Shown here: in pieces, positions 63,588 through 63,887 of the stretch
Layout of the letters: every line of letters starts with the position of its first letter
Position numbering within the stretch: position 1 is the stretch's first letter
Source of the DNA: Natronospira bacteriovora
GTDB lineage: Bacteria > Pseudomonadota > Gammaproteobacteria > Natronospirales > Natronospiraceae
DNA: 64,000 bases
Direction of reading: 5' to 3'
NCBI RefSeq assembly: GCF_030848495.1
Contig: NZ_JAVDDT010000002.1
Location: forward strand, 124,001-188,000
Made by a program: the position numbers and the translations under genes
The notes under the pieces: model-generated
What the model was told of the DNA's origin: nothing
Database searches by the model: none
What the model saw: the letters and a program-made list of their open reading frames with translations, nothing else

Positions 63588-63678
63588 ACCATCAGACAAT
63601 CAACGTGCCCGACAAGTCGTAATCGTAATCGTAATCGTAATCGTAATCGGCTCTTAATCGGGCAATCGAAGCCAAACA

Positions 63679-63734
63679 ACGAGCTGCAGGCAGAACCGTT
63701 CCGAAGGGTTCCCCGCCTGCAGCTCGTTTTTTTT
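63679..63734 (+). terminator. intrinsic terminator of sppA
   Basis: A perfect 13-bp stem (ACGAGCTGCAGGC with GCCTGCAGCTCGT) encloses a smaller GAACC/GGTTC hairpin and runs into eight T. Embedded between the two hexamer arrays. Confidence 0.9.
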
Positions 63735-63887
63735 AAAATCCGACAACGACAACGACAACGACAACGACAACGACAACGACACAAATGCGTCGGGAACGTA
63801 TTTGAACTCGCGCTCTGCGCGAGGCCCCGACCGCAGGGAGGGGTGAGTCTCATGGATGAGACGAATAACGACAGCGGCTGGGTCTTG

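Follow-up and report, generated by a model that had tools for sequence, protein, structure and literature searches.

Short hexamer arrays stand at three gene ends, beginning at positions 25765, 28736 and 63617, in the 64-kb window analysed here, which is the stretch C2:124001-188000 of genome G000 (2,998,048 bases in 15 contigs). What kind of sequence are they? The initial annotation described a single frame of TCGTTG or TCGTAA units always closing with TCGG, and suggested a genome-wide REP-like or protein-binding repeat family, or a phase-variable spacer. The three arrays are present as described, in the same frame, and they are members of one genome-wide family, which looks like a species-specific, REP-like genome repeat of unusual build.

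Anatomy of the element

Reading of the three loci replaced the one-sided arrays by inverted pairs around a core, a layout that the initial annotation had missed. At locus A, the left arm (TCGTTG)3-TCGTAA-TCGG (25765-25792, forward strand) is followed by a locus-specific core of 21 nt (25793-25813) and by the inverted right arm CCGATTACGACAACGACAACGACAACGA (25814-25841, reverse strand), a full partner side where one had been reported only for loci B and C. The whole element (25765-25841) folds to -56.7 kcal/mol with a z of -11.9. The MiaE-like gene (25164-25760, forward strand) stops 4 nt upstream of it, and the end of the convergent lpxH (25849-26577, reverse strand) lies 7 nt past it. Locus B consists of the left arm (TCGTTG)2-TCGTAA-TCGG (28736-28757, forward), the core CTTTTCTACGATTTGTTAAAAT (28758-28779) and a right arm with the single unit CCGACAACGA (28780-28789, reverse), situated between gltX (27306-28721, forward), which stops 14 nt upstream, and cysS (28842-30230, forward), which starts 52 nt downstream. 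Locus C has the left arm (TCGTAA)5-TCGG (63617-63650, forward) and the right arm CCGA-(CAACGA)6 (63740-63779, reverse), in agreement with the five and six units noted at first. Its long core of 89 nt (63651-63739) contains an ordinary intrinsic-terminator-like hairpin, AACGAGCTGCAGGC/GCCTGCAGCTCGTT plus T8 (63678-63734, forward), recognised by reading and folding of the sequence. The SppA-family gene (61845-63587, forward) stops 29 nt upstream of this locus, and a 92-nt structured repeat, the S segment (63780-63871, forward), adjoins its right arm.

Every full locus shows the layout (TCGTWR)n-TCGG, core, CCGA-(YWACGA)n. The two unit forms first proposed are both common (TCGTTG, 216; TCGTAA, 169), and a third, TCGTAG, is also common with 81 units. 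Closure with TCGG is the rule and not invariable, as 97 of 106 arms end in TCGG, 6 in TCGA and 3 otherwise. TCGTAA takes the innermost place in 78 of the 106 arms, and TCGTTG the outermost in 31 of the 37 mixed arms. Most cores measure 20-25 nt and are entered from either side through NNTTT (AAANN at the far end), past which the interior shows neither pairing nor agreement between loci. Six of 53 cores, that of locus C among them, are 85-114 nt long; several of these long cores, together with two further loci, enclose nested CTACGAGC/GCTCGTAG-type heptamer arrays or terminator-like hairpins. Recognisably related cores occur at a few loci, at C2:27833/31491 with the flanks also in common and at C1:550134/551000 in opposite orientation. 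Therefore, copies do spread.

The outer arm ends are often joined to other repeats. In 1.14 Mb the S segment was found 10 times, in 9 cases attached to a hexamer array, and it has four predicted hairpins, one stem of which carries a compensatory change (CTCGCGC/GCGCGAG versus CTCGTGC/GCACGAG). It matches Rfam RF02902 AaHKsRNA22 weakly over the full length, with 29 bits below the cut-off of 39.8, and its model also matches window positions 32030-32124 and 32243-32337 (reverse strand, E 8e-5) and both congeners. A 213-bp tandem repeat of 2.5 copies at window positions 31909-32444 contains both of these window matches, bears tRNA 3'-end copies TTCGAGTCCCTGGCGGCCCACCA and is similar to the tandem repeats at tyrT in E. 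coli. Arrays of the heptamer (CTCAGCA)n, for example at C8:4345, C6:9682, C3:317157 and C7:9224, are often joined to hexamer arms via a GGCACTGCC junction, and several contigs start or end in such arrays. At some loci, two arrays of like orientation flank a heptamer or terminator-like segment. In addition, runs of about 10 C lie beside the elements at C1:353332 and C1:525716, with a G run on the far side at 353332. A further repeat, CCCGCTTTTCCGCGAAGA, occurs as pairs that face outward at a distance of about 100-570 bp, and A-runs or terminators often come after it (window 53852-53971; C1:158104/158395, 336051/336616, 467828/468079 and 512868/513117).

Copy number, gene context and taxonomic range

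The 15-mer TCGTWRTCGTWRTCG yields 632 overlapping matches (306+326) in the 3.0-Mb genome and 1 in the reversed control; in the window, 18 matches were found with one mismatch allowed, where shuffles average 0.00. The pattern TCGTWRTCGG-N14..44-CCGAYWACGA retrieves 43 short-core elements genome-wide versus 0 in the control. Chance or microsatellite noise was rejected as the source of the arrays, and a viral origin was rejected in the absence of any IMG/VR match. In 1.14 Mb read in detail, 53 paired elements were found, and extrapolation from match density, in which unpaired arrays are counted too, gives about 104 loci in the genome. The proposal of a genome-wide REP-like family is thereby supported, with about 100 non-coding loci at gene ends sharing the TCGG end, rather than the three window loci alone or in-gene arrays lacking that end.

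Genes were called by a codon-usage script and checked against family matches in the window. None of the 53 paired elements overlaps a predicted gene in a sequence that is 88% coding. The elements lie almost exclusively just past gene ends, typically 5-50 nt from a stop codon and clustered at 0-60 nt. Gene-context statistics were drawn from targeted stretches and from 0.91 Mb in stretches that have no element as their centre. Some of the latter had been chosen for their listed matches, a bias that bears on density more than on orientation. In this 0.91-Mb sample, convergent gaps hold 11 of 23 loci versus 60 of 433 gaps (Fisher p=1.8e-4), and divergent gaps hold 1 of 23 loci versus 106 of 433 gaps (p=0.023). 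This convergent enrichment belongs to the unweighted count and becomes marginal once gaps are weighted by their number of 3' ends (p=0.065); therefore, "gene 3' ends" is the safer description of the niche. An unpaired (TCGTTG)n array at C3:18122 lies within predicted coding sequence, indicating that not every array of the TCGTTG unit belongs to the element.

Among 398 genomes of a phylum sample, the paired element was found only in G000. A 21-mer of the array has 451 matches in G000, 3 in congener G001 and 0 in congener G002, and judging by their sequence those in G001 look like one unpaired array in apparent coding sequence. Of 369 genomes of the class, 8 others have stray matches to unpaired arrays, and several of these matches lie in what seems to be coding sequence. 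Horizontal spread within the class or phylum was rejected, as the matches outside G000 are single unpaired arrays and none of the other genomes in the sample of 398 has the paired element. No hexamer element is present in the orthologous gaps of G001 and G002, and the orthologous genes at locus A are only 0-3 nt apart there. A single gap is filled by a terminator in G002, by a REP pair in G001 and by the hexamer element in G000. Comparison with empty sites gave no clean alignment, as the congeners are only about 75% identical and the gaps too diverged.

The congeners have inverted repeats of their own, built from 7-bp units (GCTCGTA in G001, GCTTGTA in G002). Upstream of an ettA-like gene, a heptamer-armed inverted repeat is found in all three species (C1:316134-316400 in G000, C103:91179-91464 in G001, C1:1199207-1199471 in G002), with unrelated loops and with GCTTG as the unit in G000 and G002 and GCTCG on both arms in G001. 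On these sequence comparisons, the inverted layout looks genus-wide and the unit species-specific. A heptamer-like array (GGCTTGCAGCTTGA)n at window positions 47693-47731 resembles the GCTTG type of G002.

Arm pairing, terminators and mobility

Identical neighbouring units number 242 versus 212±6 in shuffles, an excess that is the mark of slippage. Such block structure would also be expected of independent microsatellites arising by local slippage or of a phase-variation device. However, about 100 loci have hexamer, TCGG end and inverted layout in common, a combination found in none of the sampled relatives, which makes an independent origin very unlikely; the inverted layout common to the loci by itself contradicts such an origin. 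The phase-variable spacer of the initial annotation finds no support either, since the elements lie behind stop codons and in convergent gaps and are found neither in promoters nor in reading frames. We regard this explanation as highly improbable.

Another alternative is that the elements are functional RNA hairpins, either terminators lacking a U-tract or stabilisers of mRNA 3' ends, kept for the folding of the transcript. Their placement shortly after stop codons and at convergent ends, the stable fold of locus A and the ettA-upstream heptamer repeat, whose two arms differ in concert between G001 and the other species, are in its favour. However, the left and right arms match unit by unit no better than chance (0.462 versus 0.445 permuted, p=0.35), with no compensatory changes between them, and at core positions 1-2 pairing is roughly as frequent as expected from base composition. 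The actual arms fold at -40.4 compared with -38.4±1.1 for arms swapped between loci, a slight advantage, so that weak selection on arm pairing is conceivable. The absence of a unit-by-unit match and the small energy cost of swapping indicate that neither a maintained RNA stem nor palindrome correction is the principal force and that the two arms of an element behave as modules independent of each other.

Replacement of terminators was rejected as well. Ordinary terminators are equally frequent in gaps with and without an element (33 versus 36% in convergent and 13 versus 11% in co-directional gaps), and the element or array at C1:286038 and at 302074 has one as its neighbour. No consistent T-run follows the right arm, where an intrinsic terminator would carry a U-tract behind its GC-rich stem. 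With these points on both sides, we consider the RNA-hairpin explanation unlikely.

An array of protein-binding sites would act as DNA, recognised by a nucleoid protein, gyrase or another protein, for instance as supercoil sinks between convergent genes. This would accommodate the conservation of each arm on its own with a fixed polarity (TAA inner, TTG outer, TCGG end), the preferred arm spacing of 20-25 nt without covariation between arms, and the convergent enrichment. However, the number of units per arm ranges from 1 to 12, the dinucleotide varies freely, and the element is missing in the congeners, which would presumably depend on that function too. This possibility appears to us quite improbable.

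As to mobility, elements show no target-site duplication (mean match 1.36 versus 1.24 permuted, p=0.25). No mobilising enzyme was found for the hexamer element, and no transposase was seen between facing arms among the loci in 1.14 of 3.0 Mb. A single RAYT (Y1_Tnp) gene is present at C5:201536-201865, with a TGTGGGAGAGGCTTTAGCC...GGCTAAAGCCGCTCCCACA REPIN on either side (C5:201431-201956). A RAYT-driven REPIN reading was rejected, since the flanking REPINs are of the different, classical GTGGGAG type and no hexamer array lies within 3 kb. Taken together, the missing covariation between arms, the missing target duplication and the unchanged terminator rate argue against a conserved RNA stem, terminator replacement and a standard MITE.

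Relation to described repeats and proposed origin

E. coli BIMEs combine PU palindromes with L, S and A motifs and bind gyrase or IHF. Similar to BIMEs, the hexamer element is found in mosaics that bring different repeat modules together at gene 3' ends, whereas the modules here consist of a structured segment and of hexamer and heptamer arrays instead of PU palindromes, and the hexamer modules are not REPs by sequence. The terminal inverted repeats expected of a MITE are present. REPINs are inverted REP doublets linked to RAYT (PMC3116915). The hexamer element likewise is a non-coding inverted doublet of a short repeat round a short spacer, species-specific, at about 100 copies, and it occupies a gap niche held by a REP pair in G001. 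However, its arms are tandem TCGTWR units ending in TCGG, not REP hairpins, that is, not imperfect palindromes with a terminal tetranucleotide tag. REPs tagged with GTAG or CGTC occupy convergent and co-directional gaps and for the most part follow coding regions (PMC3733652); the position bias matches, whereas a conserved terminal tag followed by a palindrome is lacking in the element. Short-period arrays spread over intergenic space are also known as GGGNATC heptamers in Xanthomonas and Nostoc, those of Xanthomonas avoiding divergent gaps and sitting near stop codons (PMC4692102), and as TAACTGA heptamers in Beggiatoaceae (PMC4679880), but both are reported as direct arrays that lack the inverted partner and the core seen here.

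Foldback transposons and Galileo of Drosophila have long, internally repetitive terminal inverted repeats (PMC3573991). The nearest shape to the hexamer element, with its inverted repeats made of tandem subrepeats, is this eukaryotic foldback element. Those elements are eukaryotic, far larger and equipped with a transposase or its relics, whereas neither an enzyme nor a target duplication was found for the hexamer element. Nothing matching the unit sequence or inverted repeats with tandem arms turned up in literature searches, and the tandem-hexamer inverted arms match no described bacterial family that we found. A tentative and rather doubtful extension is an undescribed class of bacterial foldback-like elements, whose tandem-repeat arms would be mobile or self-propagating and recognised arm by arm by a putative enzyme. 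Each species would have its own unit (the 6-mer TCGTWR, the 7-mers GCTCGTA and GCTTGTA), with new arms laid round older arms and terminators.

We favour, at a probability of roughly 0.6, a lineage-specific, REP/BIME-like mosaic repeat of foldback shape, with about 100 non-coding copies whose arms have grown by slippage and which are tolerated, and may even be put to use, at gene 3' ends. The anatomy, copy number, position bias, absence from congeners and block-like arms are its directly supported parts. A palindromic seed, TCGTAATCGG-NNTTT-N-AAANN-CCGATTACGA, would have been copied round the genome in the recent history of the species, and the arms would then have lengthened by replication slippage, mainly through TCGTTG units added on the outside. 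Copies may have survived where they were least harmful, between a stop codon and the next gene, and there may have combined with other repeats as mosaics. Against this explanation stand the uniqueness of most cores, an odd feature under simple copy-paste, the failure to find a mobilising enzyme, a target-site duplication or a clean empty site, and the slightly better folding of actual than of swapped arms. A role in absorbing supercoils or stabilising mRNA 3' ends, if any, would be secondary; such an effect on mRNA 3' ends is plausible because of the predicted fold of locus A.

Bacterial arrays of short period are generally regarded as isolated microsatellites, whereas here about 100 inverted, tandem-armed copies share a fixed niche. 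As the congeners carry other units in the same layout, the genus may offer a natural test of how non-coding repeats without an obvious transposase arise, spread and settle at gene ends.
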